NCBI RefSeq assembly: GCF_001050195.2
Contig: NZ_DF967965.1
Coordinates: forward strand, 428,597-481,883
Reading direction: 5' to 3'
DNA from: Anaerolinea thermolimosa
GTDB lineage: Bacteria; Chloroflexota; Anaerolineae; Anaerolineales; Anaerolineaceae
DNA length: 53,287 bases
Positions 16,379 through 22,785 of the stretch are shown one piece after another (the first letter of the stretch is position 1; each line of letters opens with the position of its first letter). A program made the position numbers and the translations under genes. The notes beneath the pieces were generated by a model that worked only from the letters and a program-made list of their open reading frames with translations, ran no database searches and was not told the origin of the DNA.

Positions 16379-17680
16379 ATGAAAAGAATCCCTTTTATCC
16401 CTTCTTTTTGTATTCTCCTTGCCCTGCTACTGGCCGGATGCAACCTGCCGGAAACCGGCAGGGCCCTGCCGACTGAAACCCTTACGGCCATTCCGGTACA
16501 GACGGCTATTCCTCCTTCGCCAACTGCTCTGCCCGTGCTCTCTCCAGCGGTCACCCTGACCGTCAACCCTGCTGATGTTTCTGCAAAGCAACAGGTTGAG
16601 GTGAACCTAACTCGCATCGTCATGCTGGACCTCCAAACAGGTTGGGCTACCGGCGTGGTTGACCATGAAAAAGGGGAAGAGGTTTTACGTACCCGGGATG
16701 GGGGCGATACCTGGGAGGTAGTGACGCCGGCGCGGGCTTTGCGAGGGGCCGAAGTGCGGGCGGTCGCATTTTTTAAGGACGCACAGCATGCCTGGGTGGC
16801 CTTTACCCTGCCCCCGTACACTAATGACCAGCCGGTATTCATCTGGCGCACAACGGATGGGGGAGACACCTGGGAGGGGTCTGCCCTGCAGATGAGTAAC
16901 CTGATGATGGAATTCTTCGCCGTAGGGCAGATTGGTTTTCTGGATGAGCTGCACGGCTGGCTTCTGGCTCATCTGGGAGCGGGTATGAGCCATGATTATG
17001 TTGCTCTGCTGACTACCTCAGATGGTGGGGCCAGCTGGCGTTACGTGGTTGATCCGGAAAAGAACAATTTGCCCATGTCCTGTTATAAGGACAGCGCCTG
17101 GTTCCTGAACAAACAGACGGGGTTTGTAGCTGGCACCTGCGGTGGGGTCATTTATGGGCTATATTTCTACAGTACATCTGATGGCGGTGAGACCTGGAAC
17201 CCGGTGAACCTGCCTGCGCCGGCTGAAATGCCCGATGCCTTTACCAGCCAGGCGGTGATCTGTCTGGGACAGAATCTGCAGGGGAGCAGTTCCGCCTTGA
17301 AAATACTGGTACGCTGTTACAGCCCAGATGCGGGCAAAGACTTCCGCTGGCTCTATGTGACCAACGACGGTGGCCTGAGCTGGAAGCCCATGCTCCTCCC
17401 CGGCTCGTGGGGTGAGCTGGCTTTTCAGGGAGAAACCCTCGGCTGGTATTTTGCCCAGCCAGCTTCCGACCAGACTGCCGGAACGAAAGTGTACCTCACC
17501 CGCGATGGTGGGCAAACGTGGCGGCAAATCTCTACAGTAAACTGGAACGGCCAGGCCACCTTTGTCGATGAGAAGCATGGCTGGGTAGTGGCCATGACTC
17601 CGGAAGGTGAATCGGCTCTGGTGCACACCCGGGATGGCGGCGTGACCTGGGAGCTGTTGCACCCGGTGGCCTGGCGTTGA
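16379..17680 (+). CDS. Asp-box/YCF48-like beta-propeller lipoprotein
   Basis: A 433-residue secreted lipoprotein. The signal peptide ends in lipobox LLAGC (Cys21), followed by a Thr/Pro-rich linker of about 35 residues. The rest contains at least six Asp-box repeats of the form S/T-x-DGG-x-T/S-W (RTRDGGDTWE, RTTDGGDTWE, TTSDGGASWR, STSDGGETWN, VTNDGGLSWK, LTRDGGQTWR, HTRDGGVTWE), so a beta-propeller like YCF48 or sortilin. The binding partner is unknown. Its last 47 bp are inside the duplicated segment that recurs at 18855. Confidence 0.85.
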   Translation: MKRIPFIPSFCILLALLLAGCNLPETGRALPTETLTAIPVQTAIPPSPTALPVLSPAVTLTVNPADVSAKQQVEVNLTRIVMLDLQTGWATGVVDHEKGEEVLRTRDGGDTWEVVTPARALRGAEVRAVAFFKDAQHAWVAFTLPPYTNDQPVFIWRTTDGGDTWEGSALQMSNLMMEFFAVGQIGFLDELHGWLLAHLGAGMSHDYVALLTTSDGGASWRYVVDPEKNNLPMSCYKDSAWFLNKQTGFVAGTCGGVIYGLYFYSTSDGGETWNPVNLPAPAEMPDAFTSQAVICLGQNLQGSSSALKILVRCYSPDAGKDFRWLYVTNDGGLSWKPMLLPGSWGELAFQGETLGWYFAQPASDQTAGTKVYLTRDGGQTWRQISTVNWNGQATFVDEKHGWVVAMTPEGESALVHTRDGGVTWELLHPVAWR

Positions 17681-18854
17681 AAGGGTCGGAGGAATCAGGC
17701 GGGTCGGCCCAGGCGGGAACGCTCCTCTTCGACGATGGAGGGGTCGAGCTTTTTGAACAATGGCTGCGGCTGGACAAGCGTACGCCCGGCTTCCAGGGAA
17801 GAAGGCTCCCAACGTCCGCTGGCATTGGCCGGGTAGTAACGAAGGCCTTTGTGAGAGCCTAACTCGTCCTGAATTTCTTCCACTCCCTGCTGGCCAAACA
17901 AGGGTTTCTCATAACCGAAATAGGCGTGTAATTTTTCGCTGCTATGCGGCAGGAAGGGTGCCAGCAAAATGGAGAGATTATCGATGCAACGCAGGGCGGT
18001 GTACACGGAGCGGGCCGCGGCCTGGCGATCGGTTTTGATCGTCTTCCACGGCGCAGTTTGATCGAGATAACGATTCACTTCGGTGGCCAGGCGCATGGCT
18101 TCTCCCAGGGCGTTGCGCAGATGTACAGCTTCCAGTTCGGCACCGACGGTGGCAAATCCACCTTCTACTACCCGGATGATTTCTTCATCCTGCGGGGTGA
18201 GGGGGCCGGGATCGGGAACGCGGCCCTCAAAGTTGCGCACGGCAAAAGAAAGCACCCGGTTGGCCAGGTTGCCCCATGTGCCTACCAGTTCATCGTTGTT
18301 GCGGTGTAGAAAATCTTCCCAGTCCCAGTCGGTATCGCGGTATTCCGGCATGGTCACCGTGAGGTAATAGCGCAGAGGGTCAGGATCGTAACGTGAAAGA
18401 AAATCGCGTCCCCAGACGGCCCAGTTGCGGCTGCCAGAAATTTTCTGCCCTTCCAGATTCATAAATTGATTGGCCGGCACATCGTAAGGGAGGGTCAGGC
18501 GTTTTCCGCTCTCGCCGGTAAAGAGTTCCATGAACTGCTCCCCGGCTCCCATCAGCTCGGCAGGCCACATGGCGGTATGGAAGAAGATGTTGTCCTTTCC
18601 GATGAAATAGAAGGATCGGGCGGCGGGATTGGTCCACCAGTCCTGCCAGGCGTCTTTCTGGCCGGTGATGGCGGCCCACTCGATAGCCGCGCTGAGATAA
18701 CCGATGACGGCCTCGAACCATACGTAAAGCTTTTTACCATCCCACCCTTCAACGGGCACAGGAATGCCCCAGTCGAGATCACGGGTAATGGGGCGGGGTT
18801 TCAGACCTTCGCTTTCAATCTGGCCGAGAGCCTGTCCGACCACCGTTTCACGCA
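17634..18854. repeat. 1,221-bp tandem duplication, copy 1
   Basis: Identical over its length to 18855-20075, with no spacer between the copies. The unit holds the last 47 bp of the lipoprotein gene, the 14-bp gap and the last 386 codons of metG. Flanks differ immediately outside (g17633 versus a18854; a18855 versus t20076), so no microhomology is visible at the junction. Confidence 0.95.
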
Positions 18855-18855
18855 A
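17695..18855 (-). pseudogene. Truncated metG copy (C-terminal 386 codons)
   Basis: Encodes residues 213-598 of methionyl-tRNA synthetase, identical to the intact gene upstream. The codon equal to Met213 has become TTG at the duplication joint. It lacks the HIGH-containing nucleotide-binding half and the zinc knuckle, though it keeps KISGS, so it should be inactive as a synthetase. It has no promoter or ribosome site of its own and lies downstream of metG in the same orientation. The lack of any difference means a very recent event or an assembly error. Confidence 0.9.
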
Positions 18856-20075
18856 TGGCGGCGTGACCTGGGAGCTGTTGCACCCGGTGGCCTGGCGTTG
18901 AAAGGGTCGGAGGAATCAGGCGGGTCGGCCCAGGCGGGAACGCTCCTCTTCGACGATGGAGGGGTCGAGCTTTTTGAACAATGGCTGCGGCTGGACAAGC
19001 GTACGCCCGGCTTCCAGGGAAGAAGGCTCCCAACGTCCGCTGGCATTGGCCGGGTAGTAACGAAGGCCTTTGTGAGAGCCTAACTCGTCCTGAATTTCTT
19101 CCACTCCCTGCTGGCCAAACAAGGGTTTCTCATAACCGAAATAGGCGTGTAATTTTTCGCTGCTATGCGGCAGGAAGGGTGCCAGCAAAATGGAGAGATT
19201 ATCGATGCAACGCAGGGCGGTGTACACGGAGCGGGCCGCGGCCTGGCGATCGGTTTTGATCGTCTTCCACGGCGCAGTTTGATCGAGATAACGATTCACT
19301 TCGGTGGCCAGGCGCATGGCTTCTCCCAGGGCGTTGCGCAGATGTACAGCTTCCAGTTCGGCACCGACGGTGGCAAATCCACCTTCTACTACCCGGATGA
19401 TTTCTTCATCCTGCGGGGTGAGGGGGCCGGGATCGGGAACGCGGCCCTCAAAGTTGCGCACGGCAAAAGAAAGCACCCGGTTGGCCAGGTTGCCCCATGT
19501 GCCTACCAGTTCATCGTTGTTGCGGTGTAGAAAATCTTCCCAGTCCCAGTCGGTATCGCGGTATTCCGGCATGGTCACCGTGAGGTAATAGCGCAGAGGG
19601 TCAGGATCGTAACGTGAAAGAAAATCGCGTCCCCAGACGGCCCAGTTGCGGCTGCCAGAAATTTTCTGCCCTTCCAGATTCATAAATTGATTGGCCGGCA
19701 CATCGTAAGGGAGGGTCAGGCGTTTTCCGCTCTCGCCGGTAAAGAGTTCCATGAACTGCTCCCCGGCTCCCATCAGCTCGGCAGGCCACATGGCGGTATG
19801 GAAGAAGATGTTGTCCTTTCCGATGAAATAGAAGGATCGGGCGGCGGGATTGGTCCACCAGTCCTGCCAGGCGTCTTTCTGGCCGGTGATGGCGGCCCAC
19901 TCGATAGCCGCGCTGAGATAACCGATGACGGCCTCGAACCATACGTAAAGCTTTTTACCATCCCACCCTTCAACGGGCACAGGAATGCCCCAGTCGAGAT
20001 CACGGGTAATGGGGCGGGGTTTCAGACCTTCGCTTTCAATCTGGCCGAGAGCCTGTCCGACCACCGTTTCACGCA
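18855..20075. repeat. 1,221-bp tandem duplication, copy 2
   Basis: Second, directly adjacent copy of 17634-18854. It forms the 3' part of the intact metG and also contains a 47-bp remnant of the lipoprotein 3' end (18855-18901). Confidence 0.95.
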
Positions 20076-20712
20076 TATAGTGCTGCCGTTCTTTTAGAAA
20101 AGCGACCACTTCCGGCTCTAATTTGGAGAGGTCCATATAGAAATGTTCGGTCTCGCGTAATTCGGGGGTGGATCCATCCACTTTGGAACGAGGGTTGATG
20201 AGTTTCTCCGGCTCGAGGACATTCCCGCATCGGTCGCACTGATCGCTGCGTGCCCCTTCGAAGCCGCAAATGTAGCAGGTGCCTTCCACGTAACGGTCGG
20301 GGAGAAAACGCCCGGCAGAAGGAGAATACCACTGGGGGCGGGTTTCGGTATACAGAAAACCATTTTTAAGCAGTGCCAGGAAGATTGTCTGAGAGACTTT
20401 AAAATGGTTGGCGGTGTGGGTGGAGGTAAACAGGTCGTAGTGAATCCCCAGCTGTTGAAAGAGATCAAGGAACCCTTCATGAAAACGCTTATATACCTGT
20501 TCTACCGGCAGGCCTTCGCTATCGGCACGGAGGGTTACCGGTGTGCCGTGCGAGTCGGTGCCTGAAACCATGAGCACACGGTTGCCTTTCAGGCGATGAT
20601 AACGGGCAACAATATCTCCCGGCAGATGAGAGCCGGTGATGTTCCCTACATGGATTTCGGCGTTTGCATAAGGCCACGCGATGGCAATCAGGATATTTTC
20701 TGGAGCGGTCAT
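18916..20712 (-). CDS. metG: Methionyl-tRNA synthetase
   Basis: A class I synthetase charging tRNA-Met. In 598 residues: Rossmann start IAIAWPYANAEIHVGN (HIGH motif HVGN at 21-24), zinc knuckle C146-x2-C149-x9-C159-x2-C162, and the KMSKS equivalent KISGS at 350-354. There is an anticodon-binding helical domain, but no C-terminal EMAP-like tRNA-binding domain. The ATG at 20712 has GAGG seven bases upstream. Upstream lie a Met-rich leader peptide and a terminator-like hairpin, suggesting attenuation by the level of charged tRNA-Met. Its 3' two-thirds are duplicated downstream. Confidence 0.97.
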   Translation of the reverse strand: MTAPENILIAIAWPYANAEIHVGNITGSHLPGDIVARYHRLKGNRVLMVSGTDSHGTPVTLRADSEGLPVEQVYKRFHEGFLDLFQQLGIHYDLFTSTHTANHFKVSQTIFLALLKNGFLYTETRPQWYSPSAGRFLPDRYVEGTCYICGFEGARSDQCDRCGNVLEPEKLINPRSKVDGSTPELRETEHFYMDLSKLEPEVVAFLKERQHYMRETVVGQALGQIESEGLKPRPITRDLDWGIPVPVEGWDGKKLYVWFEAVIGYLSAAIEWAAITGQKDAWQDWWTNPAARSFYFIGKDNIFFHTAMWPAELMGAGEQFMELFTGESGKRLTLPYDVPANQFMNLEGQKISGSRNWAVWGRDFLSRYDPDPLRYYLTVTMPEYRDTDWDWEDFLHRNNDELVGTWGNLANRVLSFAVRNFEGRVPDPGPLTPQDEEIIRVVEGGFATVGAELEAVHLRNALGEAMRLATEVNRYLDQTAPWKTIKTDRQAAARSVYTALRCIDNLSILLAPFLPHSSEKLHAYFGYEKPLFGQQGVEEIQDELGSHKGLRYYPANASGRWEPSSLEAGRTLVQPQPLFKKLDPSIVEEERSRLGRPA

Positions 20713-20740
20713 GTCGAAACCTCGAAGGATGATAGGATTA

Positions 20741-20774
20741 ATAGAAAGCCGGCTGGCTTTCCGCCAGCCGGGCT
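20741..20774 (-). terminator. Attenuator-type hairpin between the leader peptide and metG
   Basis: A 9-bp stem CCGGCTGGC/GCCAGCCGG (20749-20757 with 20763-20771), extendable by two pairs past a bulge, then CTTTCTATT on the minus strand. The T run is interrupted, so strength is uncertain. Its 5' arm contains TGGCGG, which can instead pair with CCGCCA inside the leader ORF (20804-20809), a plausible antiterminator. Confidence 0.55.
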
Positions 20775-20788
20775 GAATGACATGGAAT

Positions 20789-20866
20789 TCAGAAACCCTG
20801 ACGTGGCGGTGAGAAGAACCTCCCGCGCATGCTCAACATCGACATGCTCATCATCAGGCGTTTCAT
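20789..20866 (-). CDS. Methionine-rich leader peptide of metG (25 residues)
   Basis: A short ORF beginning MKRLMMSMSMLSM, with Met at positions 1, 5, 6, 8, 10 and 13, followed by a basic and aromatic tail (RGRFF, then SPPRQGF) and TGA. AGGA lies about nine bases before the ATG. A strong promoter ends 15-20 bp upstream and the metG hairpin follows 15-40 nt after its stop. Clustered codons for the amino acid used by the downstream gene are the hallmark of ribosome-mediated attenuation. The peptide itself probably has no other function. Confidence 0.7.
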   Translation of the reverse strand: MKRLMMSMSMLSMRGRFFSPPRQGF

Positions 20867-20888
20867 GGTTACGGTTTTCCTGGCCTCA

Positions 20889-20917
20889 ATCATAGCATAG
20901 ACCGCCCGGAAATTCAA
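20889..20917 (-). promoter_or_regulatory. metG leader promoter
   Basis: Minus-strand TTGAAT (20912-20917), 17 bp, TATGAT (20889-20894), with TGC before the -10. Predicted start near 20882, 15 nt before the leader ATG. It overlaps the end of the TPR gene. Confidence 0.8.
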
Positions 20918-21441
20918 TCTTTGAAGAGGTTCAGGATGGATTGAAGGAAGGCCACTCCCTGCGGTGTGGTAACCAGAAGAACAATGACCACAAGGATGCC
21001 GATCACAGCCAGGATGAGTAAAAAGAAAAGGGTATCATTTTCAAACCATCCCCGTGGAGAAGCAGGGGCACTCTCGGGCTCAGATTCATCTTCGGGGAGC
21101 AGGTTGGAGATTGCATCGGCCAGCGGGGGTTCGGATGAGGGTTCTGCAGGAAGAGACTCCAGTTCGACAAGGTCTTCGCTAAAGAAAGGAGGAACCCCGG
21201 AAGTCGGCTCAGGCACTTCAACGTTCCGCAGGGCTTCGATGGCTTCGGGGTCATACGGATTGAGGCGCAAGACGTGCTCGTAACATTCCTTAACCTCGCG
21301 CGGATCATCCAGTGCGTGGGCCAGTAAACGCCAGGCGGCAATGTTATCAATATCCCGGCGGAGGATGGCTTCCAGTTCACGAACTGCCTCTTCACGCTGC
21401 CCCTGTTCGAGCAGGGTGATGGCCATGGATAAGTCGGACAT
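20914..21441 (-). CDS. TPR-containing protein with C-terminal membrane anchor
   Basis: A 175-residue protein. Residues 1-65 hold one or two TPR-like helix pairs (MAITLLEQGQREEAVRELEA, then ECYEHVLRLNPYDPEAIEAL). An acidic, Pro/Ser-rich stretch follows, then a transmembrane helix near the C-terminus (FFLLILAVIGILVVIVLLV). So a soluble TPR domain is tethered by its tail, presumably facing the cytoplasm. ATG 21441 has GGGGGGAG upstream; the longer frame to 21699 overlaps rpoD and is discarded. No partner is evident. Confidence 0.75.
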   Translation of the reverse strand: MSDLSMAITLLEQGQREEAVRELEAILRRDIDNIAAWRLLAHALDDPREVKECYEHVLRLNPYDPEAIEALRNVEVPEPTSGVPPFFSEDLVELESLPAEPSSEPPLADAISNLLPEDESEPESAPASPRGWFENDTLFFLLILAVIGILVVIVLLVTTPQGVAFLQSILNLFKD

Positions 21442-21484: not shown

Positions 21485-22666
21485 TTATAAGTAATCCTTG
21501 AGTTGGCGGGCGCGGCGAGGGTGACGCAATCGACGGAGGGCCTTGCTCTCAATTTGCCGAATACGTTCGCGGGTGAGGCCAAATTTCTGGCCAACCTCTT
21601 CCAGGGTATAGGCCCGGCCATTCTCCAGCCCAAAGCGTAAGCGTAAAATGCGGGCCTCGCGTGGGGGAAGGGTTTCCAACACTTCCTGTACCTTCTCACG
21701 GAGCAGGCTGGAGTAGGTACTCTGAATGGGGGAAGGGGTCACCTGATCTTCGACGAACATGCCCAGTTCAGAGTCTTCTTCATCGTCATTGATGGGGCTT
21801 TCGAGCGAGAGGGGAAGCCAGCTGACGCGCAACATCCAATCCACTTTGTTGGGTTTGATGCCAATCGCGGCGGCGAGCTCGTCGTTGGTTGGGGTGCGGC
21901 CCAGCTTTTGCTCCATCTCATGTGTGGTGCGGTATAGCTGGCGGATGCGATCTACCATGTGTACCGGCACACGGATGGTGCGTCCCTGGTCGGCAATGGA
22001 GCGGGTGATAGTCTGGCGAATCCACCAGGTAGCATAGGTGGAGAAGCGAAAACCGCGCTGGTATTCGTATTTTTCTACGGCTTTCATCAACCCGAGGTTG
22101 CCTTCTTGAATGAGATCGAGGAAGGGCACGCCCCGGCCGATGTAGCGTTTGGCAATGCTGACGACAAGGCGGGTATTGGCTTTGATCAGATGTTCCCGTG
22201 CAGCCAGCCCATCGTTAATCAGGTTTTCAAGCTCCATTCTGCGCGCCGGGGAGGTGTTCCCGTTAGAGCGGGATAATTCCTTACGTGCTGTCCGCCCTCT
22301 TTCAATGCGCTGGGCCAATTCCAGCTCTTCTTCGCTTGAGAGAAGAGGCACCCGAGACATTTCTTTGAGATAAAGCCCAACAGTATCGTCACTGGAAATG
22401 CGACTGAGATCCATTGGAGGGCTTAGCTCGCCGGTGATATTGTCATCGATCTCATCCAGAATAGGGTCGCTCTCATCGTGGTCGAGGATATCTACCCCAC
22501 GCCGGCGCAGGGCCATAAGAATAGCCTCAAAGCGTTCTCGATCATCGGTGACGTTGGGGCAGATCTCCATGAGATCTTCCGTGGTTAAATAACCCTGAAT
22601 ATCTGCTTTTTCGAGGAGCATATTCAGGATTTCGGTATTGCGTTTATGCCTTCCCGGATTCGTCAC
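21485..22666 (-). CDS. rpoD: RNA polymerase primary sigma factor (sigma-70, RpoD/SigA)
   Basis: A 393-residue sigma-70. It shows region 1.2 (DDTVGLYLKEMSRVPLLS), region 2 (LIQEGNLGLMKAVEKYEYQRG, FSTYATWWIRQTITRSIADQ), region 3 (IRVPVHMVDRIRQL) and region 4.2 (EEVGQKFGLTRERIRQIESK). It lacks a long region 1.1 and non-conserved insert, as in many non-proteobacterial primary sigmas. GTG 22666 is chosen because AGGAGG sits six bases before it; an ATG at 22723 lacks such a site. It is likely the factor that reads the TGn-TATAAT promoters here. Confidence 0.93.
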   Translation of the reverse strand: MTNPGRHKRNTEILNMLLEKADIQGYLTTEDLMEICPNVTDDRERFEAILMALRRRGVDILDHDESDPILDEIDDNITGELSPPMDLSRISSDDTVGLYLKEMSRVPLLSSEEELELAQRIERGRTARKELSRSNGNTSPARRMELENLINDGLAAREHLIKANTRLVVSIAKRYIGRGVPFLDLIQEGNLGLMKAVEKYEYQRGFRFSTYATWWIRQTITRSIADQGRTIRVPVHMVDRIRQLYRTTHEMEQKLGRTPTNDELAAAIGIKPNKVDWMLRVSWLPLSLESPINDDEEDSELGMFVEDQVTPSPIQSTYSSLLREKVQEVLETLPPREARILRLRFGLENGRAYTLEEVGQKFGLTRERIRQIESKALRRLRHPRRARQLKDYL

Positions 22667-22785
22667 GCGCACCCTCCTGATATGACAGATTCCGGTAGAT
22701 CGTAATCGTTTCCGGTCTATCAATAAGTTGATCGTTCACATAACCCATCAAGAAAAGAACCAGAGAACCAATGCGGTGCAACGGG

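Follow-up and report, generated by a model that had tools for sequence, protein, structure and literature searches.

The DNA ahead of metG in Anaerolinea thermolimosa raises the question of whether a short Met-rich ORF and the hairpins that follow it control this gene by ribosome-mediated attenuation, as had been proposed from the letters alone. We addressed it in the window, that is, the whole stretch of 53,287 nucleotides that was analysed (Anaerolineaceae, Chloroflexota), and in the metG loci of related genomes. On the minus strand of the window, between positions 20917 and 20712, a promoter-like site, the Met-rich ORF, an antiterminator/terminator pair and metG follow one another in this order, as listed here with the evidence for each feature.

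20889..20917, minus strand: promoter-like site TTGAAT-17-TATGAT with an extended -10 (TG); 9/12 consensus matches
20789..20866, minus strand: leader peptide ORF, MKRLMMSMSMLSMRGRFFSPPRQGF and stop, 25 codons; Met-dense ORF conserved in relatives
20828..20866, minus strand: Met codon run (codons 1, 5, 6, 8, 10 and 13), the proposed sensing codons; Met enrichment in relatives
20792..20864, minus strand: predicted protector hairpin (1:2) of the untranslated leader; fold, whole leader z -2.6
20761..20809, minus strand: predicted antiterminator, CCGCCA/GUC/GGG/CUGAAU with AUUCAG/CCC/GGC/UGGCGG; fold of 20761-20822, z -3.8
20739..20771, minus strand: intrinsic terminator, 9-pair stem (20771-20749) and imperfect T tract (20748-20739); sequence
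18916..20712, minus strand: metG, methionyl-tRNA synthetase, 598 aa, ATG at 20712; identity to relatives

The observation itself, a leader ORF and hairpins before metG, is confirmed. The sequence-only reading had described a promoter ahead of the leader ORF, an ORF of 25 codons, six of the first 13 being Met (start codon included), and a stem-loop with a T-rich tail before metG; each is present, the stem-loop being GC-rich and its tail reading CTTTCTATTA. CCGCCA (20809-20804) and TGGCGG (20766-20761) also lie where that reading had placed them, and the tail is as imperfect as it had said, which counts against an attenuator here, the T tracts of the relatives' terminators being stronger. Within the promoter-like site, TATGCTAT-AT shows no variation across alignment A2, which comprises four genomes. 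The site overlaps the stop codon of the upstream gene, since that gene ends at 20914, and transcription is predicted to start near 20882. The window's metG shares up to 81% identity with named Anaerolineales loci, and its ribosome site, GAGG, was located by eye at 20723-20720.

Two further features of the surroundings were noted. Positions 17634-18854 are identical, letter for letter, to 18855-20075, an exact head-to-tail duplication of 1221 bp. The repeated part comprises the 3'-terminal two thirds of metG and the last part of the convergent gene; it is either of recent origin or an artefact of assembly. One gene away upstream of metG, positions 21485-22723 encode a putative sigma-70-like C-terminus, as does the DNA upstream of metG in several relatives (L045, L050 and L068).

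Relatives of metG were collected from named genome contigs (the best 80 of 558) and from further genomes of the family, class, phylum and genus. Assignment of start codons gave 218 upstream regions, of which 189 were kept once regions shorter than 200 nt, and those duplicating another over the final 150 nt, had been removed. A leader was scored where an intrinsic terminator, found in 95 of the 189 regions, was preceded by an ORF of 8 codons or more that stopped no more than 80 nt before it; the ORF was called Met-dense if it contained at least three non-start Met within 14 codons, with the expectation taken from 20 dinucleotide shuffles per region. Met-dense leaders were found in 71 of the 189 regions against 2.6 expected, with at least four Met in 57 (0.3 expected) and at least five in 37 (0.1 expected), and their runs hold 3 to 8 internal Met codons. 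For the other 19 amino acids enrichment was small across the same regions: the largest excesses were those of Ala, with 44 against 34.4 (11 against 4.7 at five or more), of Ser, with 8 against 3.2 at five or more, and of Phe, with 9 against 4.7 and none at four or more. Strong enrichment in leader ORFs is thus limited to Met, the other amino acids being near expectation. The leader counts may be low, because inspection by eye showed shorter Met-containing ORFs before a terminator in two or more of the regions that had been scored negative (L019 and L050). ATG repeats acting as a DNA-level signal were considered and rejected: in the last 32 codons of the 71 leaders, 389 ATG are in frame against 15 and 10 in the other frames, the in-frame count being biased because the ORFs had been chosen for Met.

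The leader ORF and its Met codons are kept beyond the species, as the sequence-only reading would require. They occur in four of four genus genomes with upstream DNA (the contig of a fifth begins inside metG), in 58 of the 92 Anaerolineales regions and in 13 of 77 regions from other orders of the class, and in none of 20 metG upstream regions from other classes of the phylum; in the distant groups the regions were hand-picked, mostly one or two per family, and frequencies there describe a non-random sample. Non-conservation therefore fails as an argument against an attenuator, since the leader is found in the genus, in the order and in other orders of the class. It is absent from the loci of the sister genera Bellilinea, Longilinea, Leptolinea, Thermanaerothrix and Ornatilinea, which we count against the attenuator reading. 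In a quick tree of metG (109 rows, all from loci with a nearly full gene, 63 of them with a leader), the presence of the leader requires 13 changes, compared with 35 in shuffles, and 53 leaders fall within one clade of 58 rows. The window clusters with L005 and L007, all three having the leader, and L014 (G066), of the same genus by genome search, also has it and lies elsewhere on the tree. One locus titled Herpetosiphon sp. (L063) has its metG and its leader grouped within the Anaerolineales clade and is probably a mislabelled or contaminated MAG.

A different origin of these elements would be a T-box, a riboswitch, or a chance ORF before the ordinary terminator of the upstream gene. T-boxes do occur in the window's genome, where eight matches (L114-L121, three over the cut-off) were obtained, two of which (L118 and L120) lie directly upstream of class-I-synthetase-like frames; none of the eight is at metG. 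Rfam models run at the gathering score over the whole window returned four tRNAs only and no T-box, while a permissive scan of 20600-20960 gave five sub-threshold, unrelated matches, which agrees with the earlier remark that metG carries no T-box signature. The Rfam search of 20 leader loci at the gathering score gave no match either, and no SAM-type riboswitch was matched in the window leader or in these loci. The excess of Met-dense leaders over the shuffles speaks against a chance ORF before a terminator. We accordingly hold this group of explanations to be highly improbable.

The next question is whether the leader and the terminator can form alternative structures. The sequence-only reading had paired CCGCCA with TGGCGG; this complementarity is present, and the extent given was too short, as the predicted antiterminator reaches about 18 pairs between 20761 and 20809 and takes in the leader stop codon. 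Among the relatives, inspection by eye showed that the 5' arm of each terminator type has its complement at the 3' end of the leader that goes with it: in the window's genus CCGCC with GGCGG, and elsewhere GGCAGCC with GGCTGCC, CGCCAG with CTGGCG, GGACAGCC or GGGCAGC with GGCTGTCC, and GCGAGGCT with AGCCTCGC. Computed duplexes between leader ends and terminators had a mean of -16.4 kcal/mol, compared with -12.9 for shuffled leader ends. Complementarity reached p<=0.05 in 25 of the 71 loci and p<=0.01 in 7, and was not significant singly in 46, among them the window (p 0.085), which we count against the reading. When leaders and terminators of five types were swapped, leaders of types A, B and C did best with their own terminator type, and those of types D and E did not; among the terminators, only types B and D did best with their own leader type. 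This result backs the matching of types, although not cleanly. In alignment A1 (33 rows), 90.5% of the cells are paired in the candidate antiterminator, UGG-x-AGC-x-CGUU(AG) with AACG-x-GCU-x-UCCA, against 28-53% when it is slid, and the terminator is 100% paired; the antiterminator shows one double change only, not above shuffles, which we count against the reading. Family-wide, these comparisons offer moderate backing for an antiterminator. As a separate observation by eye, L034, L041, L042, L047, L048, L050 and L072 have an extra hairpin of the GCAGTTCA...TGAACTGC type across the leader stop codon, with the GCCAG antiterminator segment in its loop.

Conservation of the peptide itself bears on another possibility, namely that the small ORF encodes a functional Met-rich microprotein, for instance a metal-binding one, and that the terminator belongs to that gene. 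The peptides are indeed rich in Met, with Cys in some loci, and the ORF has its own promoter. They share little except their Met content, however, and three leader peptides compared with the NCBIfam models gave no match. The conserved C-terminal ending of the A1 leaders, W-x-A-R-stop, coincides with the RNA that pairs with the terminator arm, and antiterminator pairing would explain this ending. The ORF is also tied to metG. Model R1, built from A1 alone (not the window's type, and with some source rows within the searched genomes), was run on 21 genomes of family f2 and gave 22 matches, spread over 18 of them; in 17 genomes one match lies upstream of metG. A microprotein is therefore, in our judgement, a very remote prospect. 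The occurrence of a Met leader before genes other than metG was likewise rejected for these 21 genomes, because the other five R1 matches (L267-L271, E 4e-5 to 9.5e-4) are plain terminators without a Met-rich leader. In the neighbouring family, none of 18 pheS upstream regions was Met-dense and none was Phe-dense, 17 of the 18 being sound (L239 lay at a wrong offset) and L246 and L249 having been left out because they had no upstream DNA. Separately, 15 of these 18 regions (L230-L248) carry an intrinsic terminator without a Phe-rich leader, which may represent another attenuator or the terminator of the upstream gene.

Switching between the two folds was assessed by equilibrium folding with the ribosome-covered RNA masked. 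With a ribosome in the Met run of the window, the free RNA from 20809 to 20761 is predicted to fold as the antiterminator (about 18 pairs, -25.6 kcal/mol), none of 200 shuffles of 20761-20822 being as stable, and this structure is still the minimum-energy fold (-32.6) when the 3' arm of the terminator is added. The predicted terminator probability is 0.00 with the ribosome stalled at the last Met codon and 0.90 with the ribosome at the stop codon, so the window leader folds in the model as the sequence-only reading had supposed, with the antiterminator favoured by a stalled ribosome and the terminator by one that has finished. Across the 71 loci, a difference of more than 0.2 in favour of the finished state was seen at 18 and one in favour of the stalled state at none (Wilcoxon p 3e-8); the remaining 53 showed no clear difference at equilibrium, which we count against the attenuator reading. 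Two genus members lack a clear switch at equilibrium, L005 (0.93 vs 0.92) and L014 (0.87 vs 0.90). Kinetics may matter in both, because the arm is predicted to pair with the leader, with a probability of 0.90, before the 3' arm of the terminator is made. The last Met codon lies a median of 33 nt before the leader stop in the 71 loci, a distance that would keep a stalled ribosome off the segment that pairs.

At the level of sequence, then, our analysis shows a recurrent Met-coding ORF, a terminator after it and a mutually exclusive predicted pairing; a control-codon ORF, a terminator and an excluding antiterminator are the features of a trp-type attenuator, and all were found in silico. The attenuator interpretation advanced by the sequence-only reading is supported by these features and by the predicted folds, and we consider it very probable that the locus works as a trp-type, ribosome-mediated attenuator of transcription, sensing charged Met-tRNA and thereby controlling metG. 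When Met-tRNA is sufficient, the ribosome would pass the Met run and halt at the leader stop codon, covering the 3' segment of the leader, so that the terminator would form and transcription would end before metG. When it is scarce, the ribosome would stall within the Met run, the 3' segment would pair with the 5' arm of the terminator as an antiterminator, and the polymerase would continue into metG. Translation of the leader ORF, stalling on it and a change of read-through with methionine supply are what we infer from this arrangement.

How the leaders begin gives a further element to this picture. In 53 of the 71, a gap of 6-9 nt separates the best -10-like hexamer from the start codon, and in 49 of these the gap is 6-7 nt, whereas random hexamer positions gave 6.6 (5-9 nt) and 2.7 (6-7 nt); three leaders had no -10-like hexamer. 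Examples with the ATG 6-7 nt past a near-consensus -10 box are L036, L047, L048, L058 and L063, and the -10 picks are doubtful for L007 and L014, in the latter of which 6 nt separate TATCAT from the ATG by eye. In most relatives, then, the leader ORF probably starts only a few bases, if any, from the 5' end of the RNA and would be leaderless. The window differs, as 22 nt separate its -10 box from the leader ATG, so its leader appears not to be leaderless, with a predicted 5' UTR of about 16 nt.

Since Met is the initiating amino acid, this geometry also suits a leader that mainly senses translation initiation, in which a shortage of charged initiator tRNA, and not stalling in the Met run, would select the fold. 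The low terminator probabilities predicted for several untranslated leaders (L013 0.00, L015 0.00, L026 0.06, L038 0.02, L146 0.00 and L221 0.02) point the same way. The internal Met codons, however, would be unexplained if the start codon alone counted, and the window leader, besides having a 5' UTR, is predicted to terminate when untranslated (0.94). We judge initiation sensing very unlikely as the main mode. The same value of 0.94 is counted against the attenuator reading as well, because termination of untranslated RNA would be maladaptive if Met shortage also stopped initiation. A broader version of the attenuator reading, which we offer tentatively and with somewhat less than even confidence, is that of a class that is old within the Anaerolineae, made up mostly of leaderless Met-run ORFs, in which initiation with fMet-tRNA and elongation with Met-tRNA would together report MetRS output, and which would serve metG beside T-boxes used elsewhere.

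If true, leader-peptide attenuation would gain methionine and metG as targets. Many Anaerolineae genomes are predicted to carry a small ORF that is missing from their annotation and a transcription start for metG, and the system would provide a testable case of a ribosome reporting a shortage of the very amino acid needed for starting. The new aspect is that the sensed amino acid is the initiating one and that most relatives appear to lack a 5' UTR. In the open-access literature searched, we found no methionine leader-peptide attenuator and no leader-peptide attenuator of any kind described for Chloroflexota. Older work on E. coli metG regulation exists, and Lopatovskaya et al. reportedly dealt in 2010 with attenuation of amino-acid and aminoacyl-tRNA operons. 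In passages of Naville and Gautheret (2010; PMC2965389), leader-peptide systems are given as known only in Proteobacteria and Actinobacteria, together with a then new histidine leader-peptide case in bacilli.

The closest likeness in design is to the trp, his and pheST attenuators. These ribosome-mediated systems are known from Proteobacteria, and passages of PMC4833913 treat such attenuators in general. Like them, the metG leader combines a short ORF with control codons, an intrinsic terminator and a putative antiterminator that uses the 3' end of the ORF, to which the window adds a predicted protector hairpin; unlike them, it has Met codons, metG as its target and a place in Chloroflexota, the likeness being one of design and not of sequence. 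The T-box riboswitch (RF00230) resembles it in sensing tRNA charging and is present elsewhere in the window's genome, but is not matched at metG. Leaderless poly-Cys short ORFs of mycobacteria were reportedly described by Canestrari in 2020. They are like most of the relatives' leaders in being apparently leaderless and rich in the sensed amino acid, and differ in using Cys and in that PMC13236596 describes the Cys case as translation attenuation; the metG leaders have an intrinsic terminator, and the window's leader moreover appears not to be leaderless. Among aminoacyl-tRNA synthetase genes, Streptomyces trpS and leuS have classical attenuators according to passages of a 2005 survey of Actinobacteria, which lists such attenuators for trp, trpS and leuS and describes methionine operons as without conserved RNA structures (PMC1262725). 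As those passages present them, the Streptomyces genes resemble the metG locus in that a leader peptide, an antiterminator and a terminator precede the gene of a synthetase, and they use Trp and Leu codons where the metG leader uses Met codons.
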